This document shows positions 1 through 8,182 of a stretch of DNA of 64,000 nt, piece by piece. A model generated the notes under the pieces. The model searched no databases. It was not told where the DNA came from and saw nothing but the letters and a program-made list of their open reading frames with translations. The stretch covers positions 1 to 64,000 of the forward strand of contig JAUYRN010000027.1 in NCBI GenBank assembly GCA_030696775.1, written 5' to 3'. Within the stretch, counting starts at the first letter, position 1. The number at the start of each line of letters is the position of its first letter. The stretch comes from Sulfuricurvum sp. GTDB lineage: Bacteria > Campylobacterota > Campylobacteria > Campylobacterales > Sulfurimonadaceae. Position numbers and translations under genes: made by a program.

Positions 1-1553
1 TTTGCATCAACATCGGTATCGTTTGCGATGACATCGATGATGACGGCGGCATCTTCGTTTGTCGTTGCCGTGTCATTTTTGACGGTTGTCACATCATTGA
101 CGGCATCTACGGTGACATCAAAAGTACTAGTGCTACCAGTATTAACGGTGTAGGTAGCTTGAGGGACCGTTCCGTTATAGTTGGCAGCTGGGATAAAGAT
201 GTAGTCTCCGTTGACTGCAAGGCTAAGTGTTCCCACTCCGGTGATGGTCGCCGTTTGCCCTGCGGTGTAGACGGTGGAGTCTCCGGCAATTTTGAAGCTC
301 GCAATGCTGAGGATGCTATCGACATCACTGTCGTTGGTAAGGACGTTTCCGCTCACTACGGTATCTTCGGTAACAGTTTTATTATCCGGTGCCATCACGG
401 AGGCATCATCAACATTATTCTCACGCAATGTAATCGTCGCGTCGGTGGCATTGTTCGCCGCGTCTTTGACGGTGATGACGTAGTCGCCGCTGTTTGGAGC
501 GTTCTCGAAGTCGTTCGCCGTAGAAGCCGCGCCCGCCGCGGTCAGGGTGATGACACCGCTGTTATCAATTTGATAGAACCCGTCCGCGGAGATGATGGTT
601 CCCGTCGCTTTGAAGCTATAGCCGATTACGGCGACGTTGTCGCTTGCCACGACGGTCGCGATGGTGGCACCCGCTGCGGTGTTTTCCGCATAGTCGAAGG
701 TTTGGTTCGCGATCACTGGTGCTGCCGTATCGACCGTAACACTACGTACTGCCATCGTATCAATGCTGTTACCTGCTGTATCGTATGAGGTCACTTTAAC
801 ATCGATATTGTTATCTGCCACAAGATCGGCAGTGAGAACATTGACGCTGTATGTGCCGCCCGTTTGAACTGTGGTAGTGTAGTTATGTCCGTTGACGGTG
901 AGAGTGACGGTGTCACCAATTTTGATATCGCCACCCGTTGCCATTCCGCTGATCGCCGTGTTAGTTTGACCTGCTTCGGTCGCATTAATAATGTCATCGC
1001 CCGCAATGGTACTGATTGTAAGAGTTCCCGCCGTAGCAGATGTATCAATAACTACTGGTCGAAAAGTTTCAATTGTCTCTTTAGGCTGATCTAAATTTAT
1101 TGCAGTAAGATCCAATAACGTCGTAACATCTTTAACCGTCCCCGTTCGATCAGAGAATACAACCGAAGTTGAGTTTTCGCTCATAACAACTTCATTACCG
1201 GCAGCTGTTTCATTATCATTATTTTTATTATCTATTAATGCAGGATCAACAATATTAAGAGCACTTTTGAGAGAATCAGTATGAATAACAGCATCATCAC
1301 TTAAAAAAATACTTTTGAGTAAAGAGGTATCAAAATTTAGAGCACTATTTCCAGCAAGTGTAATATCAGCACTACCTGCATTAGCCATATCAATAATAAT
1401 TTTTGCAGTTTTTACATTTGTTTGGTCCCCATAGACCAATTCACCCTCAGAAATAACATCACCAGCTTTTAACTGACGAATATTTCCGTGTATATCTTTG
1501 ACAAAAAAAGTTCCATTCTCTACTGCTTTTACATATCCAATAATTCGTGCCAT
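1..1553 (-). CDS. Giant type I-secreted adhesin, N-terminal part (LapA-like retention module)
   Basis: Partial: it reads without a stop from ATG at 1553 to the left edge (517 codons visible), so the ORF track misses it. Residues 1-115 (starting MARIIGYVKAVENGTFFVKD) match the LapA/BapA-type retention module, which lodges in the TolC pore and keeps the adhesin on the surface. A TAAG tetrapeptide follows at residues 116-119, where LapG-type proteases cut. From about residue 195 come bacterial Ig-like and cadherin-like repeats (for example NEDAAVIIDVIANDTDVDA near the left edge). GAGGA lies 7 nt before the ATG. A type I transporter sits directly upstream. The repeat part is clearly GC-richer than the first 180 codons. 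Family call is strong; the C-terminal secretion signal is outside the window. Confidence 0.85.
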   Translation of the reverse strand, partial: MARIIGYVKAVENGTFFVKDIHGNIRQLKAGDVISEGELVYGDQTNVKTAKIIIDMANAGSADITLAGNSALNFDTSLLKSIFLSDDAVIHTDSLKSALNIVDPALIDNKNNDNETAAGNEVVMSENSTSVVFSDRTGTVKDVTTLLDLTAINLDQPKETIETFRPVVIDTSATAGTLTISTIAGDDIINATEAGQTNTAISGMATGGDIKIGDTVTLTVNGHNYTTTVQTGGTYSVNVLTADLVADNNIDVKVTSYDTAGNSIDTMAVRSVTVDTAAPVIANQTFDYAENTAAGATIATVVASDNVAVIGYSFKATGTIISADGFYQIDNSGVITLTAAGAASTANDFENAPNSGDYVITVKDAANNATDATITLRENNVDDASVMAPDNKTVTEDTVVSGNVLTNDSDVDSILSIASFKIAGDSTVYTAGQTATITGVGTLSLAVNGDYIFIPAANYNGTVPQATYTVNTGSTSTFDVTVDAVNDVTTVKNDTATTNEDAAVIIDVIANDTDVDA

Positions 1554-1673: not shown

Positions 1674-2267
1674 TTATGAATGAAGAAGGAGAGAAAGGGC
1701 TAAACGGTCTTTTACGGCGAGTTTTTCATAGATAGCTGAACAATGAGCTTTGATCGTGCGAACGGTAATATCTAACTTTTCAGAGACCTCATTATGTGTC
1801 ATTCCTTGAGCCAGCAACAAGGCAACTTCTCTTTCTCTAAGCGATAATTTATTCAGCTCTTTATGCTCATCAATGGCTTTCGGTTGAGATTCAGCTAAGC
1901 GACTGATAAGGGCTGCAATAAAATCAGGATATAGCCATACTTTTCCTTCTTCAATAGCTTGATAAGCTGATTGAAGGTGTGATTCATGCATCAAAGCATT
2001 ACCGTACCCCATAGCACCAGCATTGAGTACATCTTGGGCCTTCGTAAAATCAGGTACCATCGATAAAACCATAATATGATTTAATCCAGAGCGCAAAAAA
2101 TGATGTAATTCAGTATCGGACAGAACCAGATCATGCACAAAAACAATACCCTCATTCGGCTGATTGAGTTCATTCATTGTTTTGAGCTTTATAGGGTGAT
2201 ATTTTTTTAATGCACCATACCAATGTCCTAGAACAGAATCCACTGAACTTATAAGATAAAGTTTCAT
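1674..2267 (-). CDS. LuxR/FixJ-type response regulator of the adhesin locus
   Basis: A 197-residue regulator. The C-terminal half is a clear LuxR helix-turn-helix (LSLREREVALLLAQGMTHNEV... about 139-195, with the TVRTIKAH recognition helix). The N-terminal 120 residues are receiver-like, but lack the paired acidic residues after strand 1 and the conserved lysine (GYGNALM where GYLLK is usual), so normal phosphorylation is doubtful. It overlaps the membrane-fusion gene by 1 nt (TAATG) and lies just upstream of the adhesin, so it probably controls adhesin expression. A CsgD/VpsT-like role is possible, but the W[FLM][TS]R c-di-GMP motif of VpsT is not seen (WLYP is present instead). Confidence 0.8.
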   Translation of the reverse strand: MKLYLISSVDSVLGHWYGALKKYHPIKLKTMNELNQPNEGIVFVHDLVLSDTELHHFLRSGLNHIMVLSMVPDFTKAQDVLNAGAMGYGNALMHESHLQSAYQAIEEGKVWLYPDFIAALISRLAESQPKAIDEHKELNKLSLREREVALLLAQGMTHNEVSEKLDITVRTIKAHCSAIYEKLAVKDRLALSLLLHS

Positions 2268-3604
2268 TAACGCTCCGAAAAAGTATATTGTTTTGCACGA
2301 AGCAAAGGTTTGAGGATGTATTCCAAAACCGTTTTTTGACCGGTAATGACATCAACATTTACCATCATTCCCGGAATGATTTTCAGTGGTTTTTCTTTTG
2401 TACCAAGATATTTTTTATTCGTTTGAATTCTAACAATATAATAAACATTTTGCTTATCATCCGTTTCCGTATCAGGACTAATGGTTGATACAATGCCATT
2501 TAATGAACCATACGTTGAAAAATCATAGGCCGTTACTTTAACAACAGCTTTTTGTCCAGGATAAATAAATGCAATATCAGCAGGTTTTATTTTTGCCTCA
2601 ATAAGTAACCCACCTTCTGTTGGGACAATTTCAATTAAATTATCTCCAGGTTTAATAACTCCGCCAACTGTATTGACATACAATTTTTGGACAATACCGT
2701 TAATGGGTGATTTAATTGTCGTACGGGTTACTTGATCGGCCAATTCCGAACTTTCAGCACCCACACGCTGATACTCTGTTATGGCTTGGTTAAGATCCAA
2801 ACGTGCTTTTGTTACGTATTCTGATCGTGCTTCACGCATCTTGCTCGTAATCTCATTGATAGCTGAGCGGAGTCTTGGAATAGATGAGCGTACTGCATTG
2901 TAACGCTCACTTACATCACTGTATTCACGTTGTAATTTCAAAAATTCTACACGAGGTTTAATCCCTTGAGCTACCATTGGTTCAGAAATAGCAACCTCTT
3001 CACGAATAAGATCAAGAGCATGTTTTTGCTGACTAATATGGCCTTGAGCTTCAAGCAGTTCACTTTGCTTTTGTGCATATTGATCTTGCAATGAAGCTAT
3101 CTGCGACTCCAAATGCTCTTTATTGGATAAATATAAACTTCTTTCTTCCATAATCTTCATCGGAATTGCTTTCATATCCGCATCAGATGGAGAAAAAGAT
3201 CCACCAGTGGATTCAGCACGCAAACGTATAATTCGTGCACGTAATTCACCTGATTTATACTGAGAACTTTCATACGTAGAAGAGGATTTTATATTATCAA
3301 TTTTAAGCAAAACTTCCTCAGTTTTGACCTTTTGTCCCTCTTTAACCATAATTTCACTCAGAATTCCACCCTCCAAGTGCTGAATCATTTGATTTTCACC
3401 ACCGGGGATAACTTTACCATCTCCTCTTACAAGCTCATCAATAGGTGCTAAAGTTGCCCACAAGAAAAAAGCGAATACCGTTACCATCCAAAAAATAAAC
3501 ACAAAACGTAATTTATGCGGCGTATCCTCTAAAACAGCTGCAGAAATACTTCGCATAAACTGATAATCATTGGCATCAAAATTAAACTTTTTTTTAGGAC
3601 TCAT
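2267..3604 (-). CDS. Type I secretion membrane-fusion protein (HlyD/LapC family)
   Basis: A 445-residue periplasmic adaptor linking the ABC exporter to the TolC-like pore. After a cytoplasmic N-terminus there is one membrane segment (FVFIFWMVTVFAFFLWATLA, about 34-53). A split biotinyl-lipoyl domain follows (GDGKVIPGGENQMIQHLEGG and, later, KSPINGIVQKLYVNTVGGV), flanking a long coiled coil with Glu/Gln/Lys-rich heptads (about 120-270). The C-terminal beta-barrel ends in PGMMVNVDVITGQKTVLEYILKP, typical of HlyD. The start overlaps the ABC gene by 4 nt (ATGA), so the two should be co-translated. Confidence 0.92.
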   Translation of the reverse strand: MSPKKKFNFDANDYQFMRSISAAVLEDTPHKLRFVFIFWMVTVFAFFLWATLAPIDELVRGDGKVIPGGENQMIQHLEGGILSEIMVKEGQKVKTEEVLLKIDNIKSSSTYESSQYKSGELRARIIRLRAESTGGSFSPSDADMKAIPMKIMEERSLYLSNKEHLESQIASLQDQYAQKQSELLEAQGHISQQKHALDLIREEVAISEPMVAQGIKPRVEFLKLQREYSDVSERYNAVRSSIPRLRSAINEITSKMREARSEYVTKARLDLNQAITEYQRVGAESSELADQVTRTTIKSPINGIVQKLYVNTVGGVIKPGDNLIEIVPTEGGLLIEAKIKPADIAFIYPGQKAVVKVTAYDFSTYGSLNGIVSTISPDTETDDKQNVYYIVRIQTNKKYLGTKEKPLKIIPGMMVNVDVITGQKTVLEYILKPLLRAKQYTFSER

Positions 3605-5781
3605 ACTTGACCTCCCGAAAGCTTCGCGATGACACTGTCACGAGGTCCATCCAAATAAATTTCACCTTCATTCATTACAATGATTCTATCAACCAAAGGT
3701 AAAACCGTATTTTTTTGCGTAATAATGATGGCAGTTTTATCCACTAAATACGTTTGTAAATTAGCAATCAACCGATTCTCGCTAAGCTGATCCATAGCGT
3801 TTGTCGGCTCATCCATGATGACGATTGGTGATTCTAACAATAAGGCTCGAGCAATCCCAATACTTTGACGTTGACCGCCTGAAAGCCCCATACCGCGCTC
3901 ACCGATAGGCATTTCATACCCCAAAGGATGACGACGTATAAACTCATCAGAGCCTGAGATAACGGATGCACGAATCATCTGTTCATCGGATACTCGTGTA
4001 TTTCTGTACGCAATGTTGTCTTTTGCATTACCCTTAAAAAGATTAATATCTTGGGAAACGTAACTAATGTTTTTACGCAAATCTGCAGGATCAATTTGAT
4101 TGATATCAATACCATCCAATAAAATCGAACCGCTCTGAGGCTGATATAAATTAAGCAACAACTTGGCTATCGTACTTTTACCGGAACCGATACGACCAAT
4201 AATCGCTATTTTTTCTCCCGCTTTAATCGAAAATGAGAGATTTTTCAAAGCACTAAACTGGGAATCCTCATATCCGAAATTGACTCCTTGAAACTCAATT
4301 TCACCTTTCAATTGTGAACGGGCAACAAATTTTTTACCGTGAGGTCGCTCCATCGGTTGTGAAATAATCGTATCGATAACGTCATAAGCGGATTTTGCAT
4401 CTGAGTAATTTGAAATCAGGGAAGCCACTTGTCCCATTGGGGCAACCGTCCGACCAGCCAAAGTCATAATAGCGATTAACCCACCCATACTCAACTCATG
4501 TTCACCAATCATATAAACTCCAACTATAACGGTTACAACCGTCGTTAATTGTGTGAGATAGCCAGTAATCGTTGAGATTGATGTTGAGATAAGACGTGAT
4601 TTTAAACTTTTTTGGGCAATTTCCCCAGTGGCTTCTTCCCATTGCCATTGCATCTGCCCCATTGTCCCCAAGGTTTTCAACGTTTCGATGTTTTGTAACG
4701 CTTCAATAAGAATGGAACTTTTGGCCGCAGATGCTTTATGGCTTTGTTCAATACTTTCTCGCAAGGGATGCCGCATAAAGAGAGCATACGCTGCAATAAG
4801 AAGCATGATTGTGATCGGAACGACGACAACCCAACCACCAATATATCCAATGACGATTAAAAATAAAATAGCAAAAGGAAAATCTACTAACGCCGTGAGT
4901 GTCGCATTAGTCAAAAACGAACGTATCGAATCAAAGTCTTTCAGATTACTGGCAAAGGAGCCAACGGATTTGGGATGAGATGACATTTTCAGATCCAAAA
5001 CTTTTTCAAAAATAATCGATGACATAATGACATCACTTTTTTTACCTGCACTCTCCAACAGCATCGCCCGAGTAAATTTTAAAAAAGTATCAAGTAAATA
5101 AATTATCAACACACCTACAGCAAATACCCACAGCGTTTCGGTAGCATTATTAGGAATAACACGGTCATAAACACTCATTGTAAACATCGGAGTTGCCAAA
5201 ACAAATAAATTGACAAGTACCGTAGCATAAATTACATCACGGTAAATATTTTTTGAAAGCTTTAAGGTATCCCAAAACCAATGTTTATGCTTAACATCAA
5301 GTGTCAAAGAGTCATTTTCATCATACACAAACGGTCGCTTGATCAAAAAACCATACCCTGCATATTCTTTTTCTAAAACTTCAATAGGGACAATTTCTTC
5401 TACTGCTTCTTCAGCGGGAAGTATAACTTTACATGTTTTTAAATCCGAGGAAAATGAGTCCAATATACATGCACTATTATTTTCCAAAAGTAATATCATT
5501 GGTAATTGCAAAGGAGAAATGTCACGTAAATGACGATGTACTAATGTACTTTTTAGCCCGGCACGACTTGCTGCGCGAGCAAAAAGCCCTTTAGATGACT
5601 TTAAATTAAAAAGCTGAAGAGCTCCCCCAAAAGGGGAAACAGGAAGTCCGGCCATAAGGACTTCAGCACTGTAAGGCTTATGATAAATATGGGTAAATAA
5701 AACCAAACATTGCAATAGAGGGTCAACACCAAAAGCTGCTCCTTCTGGATCACTTATGCTGGATTGCTCGTTCTCATTCAT
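3601..5781 (-). CDS. Type I secretion ABC exporter with C39-like domain (LapB/HlyB family)
   Basis: A 726-residue transporter-ATPase powering export of the adjacent adhesin. Residues 1-150 resemble a C39 peptidase domain, but the cysteine box is absent (DPLLQCLVLFTHIYHKPYSA), as in C39-like domains that only hold substrate. A six-helix membrane domain follows (about 175-450). The nucleotide-binding domain has Walker A (GRIGSGKST), signature (LSGGQRQSIGIARAL) and Walker B (IVIMDEPTNAMD). The switch histidine of the H-loop is replaced by glutamine (IIITQKNTVLPLVDR). This is the LapB-like class used for large retained adhesins. It lies 51 nt after the tolC-like gene, in the same operon. Confidence 0.92.
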   Translation of the reverse strand: MNENEQSSISDPEGAAFGVDPLLQCLVLFTHIYHKPYSAEVLMAGLPVSPFGGALQLFNLKSSKGLFARAASRAGLKSTLVHRHLRDISPLQLPMILLLENNSACILDSFSSDLKTCKVILPAEEAVEEIVPIEVLEKEYAGYGFLIKRPFVYDENDSLTLDVKHKHWFWDTLKLSKNIYRDVIYATVLVNLFVLATPMFTMSVYDRVIPNNATETLWVFAVGVLIIYLLDTFLKFTRAMLLESAGKKSDVIMSSIIFEKVLDLKMSSHPKSVGSFASNLKDFDSIRSFLTNATLTALVDFPFAILFLIVIGYIGGWVVVVPITIMLLIAAYALFMRHPLRESIEQSHKASAAKSSILIEALQNIETLKTLGTMGQMQWQWEEATGEIAQKSLKSRLISTSISTITGYLTQLTTVVTVIVGVYMIGEHELSMGGLIAIMTLAGRTVAPMGQVASLISNYSDAKSAYDVIDTIISQPMERPHGKKFVARSQLKGEIEFQGVNFGYEDSQFSALKNLSFSIKAGEKIAIIGRIGSGKSTIAKLLLNLYQPQSGSILLDGIDINQIDPADLRKNISYVSQDINLFKGNAKDNIAYRNTRVSDEQMIRASVISGSDEFIRRHPLGYEMPIGERGMGLSGGQRQSIGIARALLLESPIVIMDEPTNAMDQLSENRLIANLQTYLVDKTAIIITQKNTVLPLVDRIIVMNEGEIYLDGPRDSVIAKLSGGQV

Positions 5782-5832: not shown

Positions 5833-7242
5833 TTACTTTTCAACTTCTCTTTTGTATTTATCTATTTTTCTATCTGCGAAAATAAGGTTTTCGATGCGAT
5901 CATTATTATCCTGTCGATTATCTAATGATTTCAATCCAACGCGTGCGATCAAGGCACTCTCTTGGGTTCCAAGAATCGATGGAACCATCGTTCCCATGGA
6001 ATCTAAAATTCGATAATGAGCAAGCATCAAATCATTTTCAGCACGAATTATTTGTGTTTGTGCAGAGACATGATCACTTTGAGCTGTAAGCAAATCCAGC
6101 AACGTACGGCGACCTAAGTCATACTCTTTTTGATACAGTTCTAATGTTCTTTTACTTGAAATCTCATAGCGCTTAAGATGAACTATTTGATCCGCTAAAT
6201 TTTTCTTAGCAGACCATGAAAGCGATCCTTGTTCGTCTAACTTACGTAGATTATCTCTTCTAGTCTCAGATTCCTGATTGATTTTACTCAAACTTTTATG
6301 GATTTGAGACTCATCTGCTCCACCACGATACAAATTATAATTAAGAGTCAGTCCAGCTTTAAAACGATCATCATTCCCCGGTATTCCACCAACGTTATTT
6401 GCCCAACTCTGCCGTGCAAAAGCATCAATACTAGGATAATATCCTTTTTGTGCAATCTGTTTTTGAGCTTGAGCTGCTTTAATATTGTAATCGTTGACTA
6501 AAATAGAAGGATTATGAAGCTGTGCATATTCCTTCATTTCTTCGATTGAATCCGGTAATTCTCCAGAAAAAGAGAGTCCTTGGACTTGTGAAGGAGAAAC
6601 TTTTTTACCATAAATACGTTCTAAATTAAAGAGTGCATCATCAAGATTATTCTGAGCAACAACAAAATTTGATTTAGCTAGAGAAAGAGAAGTATCAGCT
6701 TTTTCAACCTCTGAACGCGTTGTTAGACCCGCATTAAAAAGTTTTTCTACTTTGATCACAATATCATCATTGTATTTCACATTGGACTGCGCAACAAACA
6801 TGATATCGCGTGTTTTAAGTGCGTTGATATAAGCTGTCGTAAAGTTAAAAGCGACGTCATTGGCATTTTCGATATAATTGTATACTGCGGCTAAAATACG
6901 TGCTTTATTATAATCCGATTCGTGTGTTGTAGCAAAGCCATTAAAAAGATTTTGTGTCAGTTGTAATGAGTGCTCATAAGCATTTAGTGAAACACTATTA
7001 AAGCTTGTACTTGGTGAATTTGTTTTCTCACGACCAATGGTCGCTGTATAATCCAATGTTGGAAGATACTGCGCCTCAGTCGTTCGTAAATCTTCTAAAG
7101 TTGCACGATAATTGTGAAGGCGCTCTTGTACGATTGGATTGGTGCTAAGAACATCATCTACCCCCTCTTGTAAAGAAAGTGCATTTAATGCAGAAATTGC
7201 ACACATTGAAAGAGTTGTAATAATAGCCCATTTGTTTTTCAT
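5833..7242 (-). CDS. TolC-family outer-membrane channel of the type I system
   Basis: A 469-residue protein with an N-terminal signal peptide (MKNKWAIITTLSMCAISALNA). It has the two-fold TolC repeat: long amphipathic helices separated by strands such as YEHSLQLTQNLFNGFAT and FKAGLTLNYNLYRGG, the usual ...LTQNLF(N/D)G and ...YNLYRGG strand signatures. It is predicted to form the trimeric outer-membrane tunnel with the HlyD- and HlyB-like proteins encoded downstream. In LapA systems this pore (LapE) also holds the retention module. It is the first gene of the operon, facing the divergent OmpA-like gene. Confidence 0.9.
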   Translation of the reverse strand: MKNKWAIITTLSMCAISALNALSLQEGVDDVLSTNPIVQERLHNYRATLEDLRTTEAQYLPTLDYTATIGREKTNSPSTSFNSVSLNAYEHSLQLTQNLFNGFATTHESDYNKARILAAVYNYIENANDVAFNFTTAYINALKTRDIMFVAQSNVKYNDDIVIKVEKLFNAGLTTRSEVEKADTSLSLAKSNFVVAQNNLDDALFNLERIYGKKVSPSQVQGLSFSGELPDSIEEMKEYAQLHNPSILVNDYNIKAAQAQKQIAQKGYYPSIDAFARQSWANNVGGIPGNDDRFKAGLTLNYNLYRGGADESQIHKSLSKINQESETRRDNLRKLDEQGSLSWSAKKNLADQIVHLKRYEISSKRTLELYQKEYDLGRRTLLDLLTAQSDHVSAQTQIIRAENDLMLAHYRILDSMGTMVPSILGTQESALIARVGLKSLDNRQDNNDRIENLIFADRKIDKYKREVEK

Positions 7243-7525
7243 TTATATAGCCTTTATATTATAAAGATTTACAAATCGTAAAACCACGTGCCGATTGTTG
7301 GTAAATCATGTTTTTTTATTATTTCATAGCAATTCTATATAAAAATAATAATTGAAATGTGACAATTTGTCAACAATTCATCACTCTAATTATAACTGCA
7401 AAATAAGTTTAACGTAAAAATCAATAAATATCATATTATTTAGATGATTTAACGTTATATTATAGATTCTTTTATTGAAAACTTGTAATAATAGCACTTA
7501 TCATAATCAAATATTAGGAATACCT
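7243..7525. promoter_or_regulatory. AT-rich divergent control region between tolC-like and ompA-like genes
   Basis: These 283 nt hold no gene. They contain a 13-bp interrupted palindrome TGACAA-T-TTGTCA (7360-7372), a plausible regulator site. A TATATTATAG -10-like stretch (7456-7465) lies before the plus-strand OmpA gene. On the minus strand a TATAAT (7258-7263) sits very close to the tolC-like ATG, too close to leave a normal leader, so I would not call it the promoter. Confidence 0.4.
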
Positions 7526-8182
7526 ATGTCTATTCGTACTAATTCTAAGATTGCCTCATTTGTCTATCTTTTTACTGTTGGCTTGTCATTCTCAGGTTAT
7601 GCTGTTGATCAGCAATGCATAGTACGGCATGAAATATGTACAGAGCATTATAAGCAAACGACTTTTGCTCCAAGCTATCAAGAGATTATCAAAAAGCAAC
7701 CTATTGCGCAAGCAGCTCCAGTAGTTGCTCCTATCGCTGTAGTAGCTATTCCAATGCTTAGTGATGAGGACAATGATGGAGTTGAGAATACGTTAGATAA
7801 ATGTCCTCAAACTCCACAGGGATACAAAGTAGACTCGACAGGGTGTCTAAGAAATGTCACTCTTTACATCAATTTTCCTTTCGCATCTAATGTCCTTCCC
7901 GCTTCTTCCATAAAAGAGGTAGAGACATTAACAGCCTTCCTACAAGAAAGTCCTGCATCGATGGTGACAATTATCGGACATACTGATAATAACGGAATTG
8001 ATACGCGCAATCAGCCTCGTTCGGAAGCCAGAGCAAAGGCATTAGGAGATAAATTAATTTCAAATGGAATTGATATGAACCGAATTAAAACATCAGGTCA
8101 AGGGGCAAAAAATCCAATTGCTTCCAACGCAACTGATGCAGGACGTGCCCAAAATCGTCGCATAGAAGTTCAAATCAAATAA
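7526..8182 (+). CDS. OmpA-family outer-membrane protein with thrombospondin type 3-like linker
   Basis: 218 residues from the ATG at 7526, chosen over the upstream start at 7475 because AGGA lies 7 nt before it and it opens a clean signal peptide (SKIASFVYLFTVGLSFSGYA). The middle carries a calcium-binding type 3 repeat (DEDNDGVENTLDKCPQTPQG). The C-terminal ~110 residues are an OmpA peptidoglycan-binding domain (IGHTDNNGIDTRNQPRSEAR; GRAQNRRIEVQIK). No long beta-barrel is present. OmpA-like proteins often accompany retained-adhesin transport genes, so it may anchor the secretion complex to the wall. It runs convergently into the HIT gene with a 13-nt overlap. Confidence 0.88.
   Translation: MSIRTNSKIASFVYLFTVGLSFSGYAVDQQCIVRHEICTEHYKQTTFAPSYQEIIKKQPIAQAAPVVAPIAVVAIPMLSDEDNDGVENTLDKCPQTPQGYKVDSTGCLRNVTLYINFPFASNVLPASSIKEVETLTAFLQESPASMVTIIGHTDNNGIDTRNQPRSEARAKALGDKLISNGIDMNRIKTSGQGAKNPIASNATDAGRAQNRRIEVQIK

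Follow-up and report, generated by a model that had tools for sequence, protein, structure and literature searches.

A probable LapA-type giant adhesin under LapD/LapG control in Sulfuricurvum, and the occurrence of Lap systems in Campylobacterota

The window analysed here is a stretch of 64,000 nucleotides from the genome of a Sulfuricurvum, a sulfur-oxidising relative of Campylobacter, and its first letter is also the first base of contig C35. The minus-strand ORF at 1553-3 most probably encodes the start of a very large surface protein; because window and contig share their first base, this ORF leaves the window and is still open past position 3. The predicted protein starts with MARIIGYVKAVENGTFFVKD and also carries NDNETAAGNEV, and Ig-like and cadherin-like repeats (Ig_like_ice, Ca_tandemer, Cadherin_4, Big_9) were found downstream of its N-terminal domain. 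The adhesin gene is preceded, on its own strand, by genes for a LuxR-type regulator, an HlyD adaptor, an LssB/LapB-type ABC transporter and a TolC-like channel. The features of the locus are as follows.

3..1553, minus strand: LapA-like giant adhesin, N-terminal 517 amino acids (ORF from the ATG at 1553 to the edge of contig C35)
1308..1553, minus strand: probable retention-module domain, residues 1-82 (profile match to 5ix9, AF2 and Foldseek)
1257..1280, minus strand: predicted helix, residues 92-99, where the LapG targeting helix would be expected (AF2, low confidence; literature model of PMC13090378)
1242..1247, minus strand: DP motif, residues 103-104, between the predicted helix and TAAG (motif reading; consensus of PMC13090378)
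1197..1208, minus strand: TAAG, putative LapG cut site at A117/A118, residues 116-119 (motif and homologue conservation)
1674..2267, minus strand: LuxR/GerE-type regulator, between HlyD and the adhesin, in the same place in the relatives L059 and L107
2267..3604, minus strand: LapC-like type I secretion adaptor, HlyD family (TIGR01843, 407 bits, cut-off 209)
3601..5781, minus strand: LapB-like type I secretion ABC transporter (TIGR03375 type_I_sec_LssB, 874 bits, cut-off 693)
5833..7242, minus strand: LapE-like TolC outer-membrane channel (TIGR01844, 278 bits, cut-off 225)

Judged by these profile scores, the three export genes are those of a dedicated LssB/LapB-type type I secretion system. 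In the window, in the same-genus genome G308 and in L107 alike, the LuxR/GerE gene separates HlyD from the adhesin, whose transcription it may regulate. An OmpA-family protein with a TSP_3 repeat is encoded at 7475-8182, divergently from the TolC gene, and may be an envelope partner of the locus.

The N-terminus of the adhesin appears to adopt a retention-module fold. When a 16-row profile was searched against the PDB, it matched 5ix9, the anchoring domain of Marinomonas primoryensis, with an E-value of 9e-7, the next match standing at 0.37; a search with the one sequence gave 5ix9 as its sole match, a weak one (E 1.3). The AF2 model built from the single sequence (mean pLDDT 47) had 5ix9 as its top Foldseek match (prob 1.00, TMt 0.57), and so did the model built from a 9-row alignment (prob 1.00, TMt 0.78, 2.6 A over 83 columns), which takes in gammaproteobacterial retention modules and may have been steered by them. 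Neither model is confident along its full length: in the 9-row model the pLDDT is 81-89 over residues 1-40, drops from 74 to 58 over residues 41-80 and is below 50 from residue 83 on, the TAAG linker included. The domain scored 19.7 bits with the NCBIfam model retention_LapA, below the cut-off of 50, and it is the only retention module found in the source genome. A preliminary description of the window had seen a retention-module-like N-terminus here and had called for a structure model of it; profile and model comparison both lead to 5ix9, the anchoring domain being the top match of the model.

Just past this module stands a putative site of the [T/A/P]AAG type. Known LapG sites consist of a variable helix, a DP and then [T/A/P]AAG, with the cut falling between the alanines (PMC13090378). 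The gap between DP and TAAG is 11 residues in the window adhesin, longer than the 6 residues of Pseudomonas fluorescens LapA (DPTTALESTAAG, PMC3032553). When residues 81-160 of the window protein were shuffled, TAAG arose with a probability of about 0.001. TAAG was present in 16 of the 20 retention-module homologues of the family, against 0.12 expected from shuffles, a comparison that is not a strict probability since the homologues share kinship and were found with a motif-containing query. In the 16-row alignment G119 is invariant and T116, A117 and A118 are nearly so, and TAAG thereby ranks with the best-conserved columns of a linker that elsewhere varies and has gaps; near variants (TSAG, TASG, TAGG and TTAG) occur in some homologues. 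The TAAG that the preliminary description had placed at residues 116-119 is borne out, and the motif, position, adhesin type and phylum that it named were all right, the close relatives being named Sulfuricurvum, Campylobacterota.

That description had also remarked that lapD and lapG are missing from the window and had suggested a search of the genome for their homologues. They are indeed not in the window, and the genome carries both, side by side on contig C2. Neither of the two findings that the description had named as fatal to its reading was thus obtained, and that reading is supported. At the start of C2, a reading frame that enters from beyond the contig edge encodes the last 1787 aa of an adhesin, with a cadherin-like repeat, a VWA domain and RTX repeats; it is followed after 18 bases by LapG (214 aa) and, 3 bases further, by LapD (653 aa). 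The source genome has a single LapG (PF06035, over the cut-off) and a single true LapD periplasmic domain (PF16448), both on C2. Among solved structures, LapG matches Legionella LapG 4fgo (E 7e-38) and 4u65; the protein keeps the Cys-His-Asp triad and the Asp/Glu calcium motif, and each of the 36 aligned LapGs of the phylum has the same residues at D103, C104, E105, D106, H139 and D156. By this homology, triad and motif it is most probably a genuine LapG, and its 173 bits with NCBIfam CystProtLapG, under the equivalog cut-off of 320, fall short of an annotation threshold, not of a functional feature.

LapD combines a LapD_MoxY_N output domain with GGDEF and EAL domains. It scored about 138-141 bits with PF16448 (E 2.5e-41), and its output domain matches 4u64 (E 4e-22) and 3pjv. 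It keeps the PxWF segment (VPSWF) and the tryptophan of the LapG-gripping loop, G125-W126 (motifs from PMC3032553), with the loop reading GWSR where the known motif is GWxQ (PMC3032553). A reading of its motifs indicates that GGDEF and EAL are degenerate, with RLNESDF for RxGGDEF, EIFLR for EALLR and IDHF for DDFG. A periplasmic output domain with the LapG-binding tryptophan, together with degenerate GGDEF and EAL domains, points to a LapD; the 326 bits with NCBIfam c-di-GMPRcptLapD lie under the equivalog cut-off of 1020, which is again a threshold for annotation and not a functional feature.

We sought an exact overlap between the ends of C35 and C2 and found none. Since the contig ends lack such an overlap and the middle of the adhesin is unassembled, the joining of the two contigs is drawn from synteny. 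The starts of C35 and C2 are the sole places in the source genome where cadherin-like repeats are present. In G308, one uninterrupted stretch holds HlyB, HlyD, LuxR, an adhesin of 2586 aa with TAAG at 125, LapG and LapD, and in L107, a named Sulfuricurvum contig, TolC, HlyB, HlyD, LuxR, a 1436-aa adhesin with TAAG, LapG and LapD follow each other on one strand. The long repeat region and the RTX repeats near the adhesin C-terminus would accordingly be split over two contigs in our genome, and belong to a single gene in G308. The G308 genome also has a second Lap-like cluster (L060 2973-11701), in which an 826-aa retention-module adhesin with TAAG at 103 is accompanied by HlyD-, HlyB- and TolC-sized genes and by a second, divergent LapG; no second LapD match was found in the G308 genome.

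The distribution of these parts was counted in a sample of 397 Campylobacterota genomes. LapG was found in 133 of them and LapD in 134, with both in 132 and 3 discordant genomes. The retention-module profile, which includes the TAAG columns and is therefore somewhat biased towards motif-bearing proteins, matched 115 genomes, 108 of which have LapG. In the seven lapG-lacking genomes, none of the 8 retention-module-like proteins has TAAG; their matches end before the cut-site columns, and 2 or 3 of them, which scored weakly, may be something other than retention modules.

We consider it very probable that the window ORF encodes the first part of a giant RTX adhesin of the LapA type, under LapD/LapG control. 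The points that weigh against this are the unassembled middle of the adhesin, the scores of LapG and LapD below the NCBI equivalog cut-offs, the GWSR loop and the longer DP-TAAG spacing. The parts, the gene order in relatives, the active-site residues, the conservation of the cut site and the co-occurrence of the genes were directly observed. Plugging, cutting, c-di-GMP binding and release are modelled on the Lap literature for Pseudomonas and Legionella, according to which the neighbouring HlyB/HlyD/TolC type I system would export the adhesin, and the retention module would fold in the periplasm and jam the TolC-like channel, so that the adhesin would be kept on the surface. At high c-di-GMP, the tryptophan loop of the inner-membrane receptor LapD would keep hold of LapG, a cysteine protease of the periplasm; a drop in c-di-GMP would free LapG to cut between A117 and A118 in TAAG, and with the loss of the plug the adhesin would be released.

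Three other explanations were weighed against this one. TAAG could be coincidental, with LapG and LapD serving another substrate and the window adhesin permanently held: a motif of four residues, at a probability of about 0.001 in one protein, does leave room for chance. We nevertheless regard this as very unlikely, since TAAG recurs in 16 of 20 homologues despite the variable linker, lapG and lapD share a gene row with the adhesin in G308 and L107, the retention-module-like matches of lapG-lacking genomes are without TAAG, and the source genome has no other LapG or LapD than this one pair. It is slightly more improbable still that the window N-terminus and the C2 C-terminus belong to separate adhesins, with LapD and LapG tied to the C2 one only. 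Such a reading would agree with the lack of an exact overlap between C35 and C2, whereas the flanking gene order equals that of the uninterrupted locus of G308 and L107, the cadherin-like repeats are confined to these two contig ends, and the genome has one retention module.

The last alternative, to which we give hardly any credence, is an adhesin system of the DvhA/DvhDG type (Desulfovibrio) or of the CdrA type (type Vb) rather than Lap proper. Both likewise use a LapG-family protease, and DvhG cuts [T/A/P]AAG sites (PMC13090378); however, DvhD has a dCache domain (PMC13090378), and the export genes found here are those of type I secretion. Membership in DvhDG was rejected, the receptor being of the LapD_MoxY_N, GGDEF and EAL type and not of the dCache type.

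As a Lap system, the Sulfuricurvum locus resembles LapA/B/C/E with LapD/G of P. fluorescens in its retention module, its TAAG with an upstream DP, its type I trio with an LssB-type ABC transporter, its LapG with triad and calcium motif and its LapD with tryptophan loop and GGDEF-EAL. It differs in belonging to another phylum, in its divergent retention module, in GWSR for GWxQ and in the longer spacing between DP and TAAG, as well as in the LuxR-type gene between HlyD and the adhesin and in having lapG and lapD directly after the adhesin. The RtxA/LapG/LapD system of Legionella pneumophila supplies the solved structures nearest to LapG (4fgo) and to the LapD output domain (4u64); the Sulfuricurvum system differs from it in phylum and in its adhesin repeats. 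With DvhA/DvhG/DvhD of Desulfovibrio vulgaris it shares a retained adhesin with a VWA domain, a LapG-family protease and an AAG site, whereas the receptor is LapD proper and not one with a dCache sensor domain. The anchoring domain of M. primoryensis MpAFP/MpIBP (5ix9) agrees with the retention module in fold and sequence profile, and comes from an ice-binding adhesin. The control of adhesins by LapD and LapG has been worked out in Gammaproteobacteria and is far less known outside that class (PMC13090378, 2026). Most work on this kind of release has dealt with Pseudomonas and its relatives. Searches of the open-licence literature for LapG and LapD paired with Sulfurimonas, Epsilonproteobacteria or Arcobacter found no paper. 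It is well supported that the system is of a known kind and widespread in Campylobacterota, and no prior description for the phylum was found in that literature.

In a LapG tree of 117 rows, a single branch (99/95) separates the named Campylobacterota rows from the Pseudomonadota rows, and the LapG of our genome groups with those of Sulfuricurvum. The gammaproteobacterial rows are joined by twelve LapGs of family f7, from genomes with a different form of LapD, and long branches are seen for a few divergent LapGs. The tree was built on a biased sample of best matches with a bootstrap that is not fully settled; its pattern suggests that the Lap system is mainly old within the phylum, and that later transfers are probable.

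With the NCBIfam models NF033682, NF045673 and NF045674, compared with window positions 1152-1553 and with L002:5383-7992, the retention module, LapD and LapG all scored below the curated cut-offs, and automatic annotation therefore probably under-reports Lap in the phylum. We lean, with some reserve, towards the view that Campylobacterota possess, as a trait of the phylum, a full Lap circuit passed on for the most part by vertical descent and carried by about one third of the sampled genomes, that its phylum-specific retention module escapes current annotation models, and that in some genera it controls whole arrays of retained adhesins, as many as 13 retention-module matches being counted in one genome. 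The source genome has 58 GGDEF matches, which would supply the signal network and agree with the rank of Sulfuricurvum kujiense among the organisms richest in c-di-GMP enzymes (PMC10333796). The Lap circuit would give a concrete output to the c-di-GMP network of Sulfuricurvum, whose enzyme density is one of the highest known (PMC10333796), and would make the change from attachment to release open to testing, both in chemolithotrophs and in other Campylobacterota.

A few lineages of the sample have an organization of their own. Most of the genomes with LapG and no retention-module match belong to family f7, where LapD (for example in G330:C38, G273:C77 and G370:C1) is about 740-750 aa long and matches PF16448 in two separated pieces, with an insertion between them. 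Tandem, adjacent LapG paralogues are present in G361:C26 and G396:C1. Genomes of genus g9 in family f3 (G082, G052 and G156, for example) have as many as 9-13 retention-module matches each and a single LapD, which suggests that one protease-receptor pair serves a large set of adhesins.
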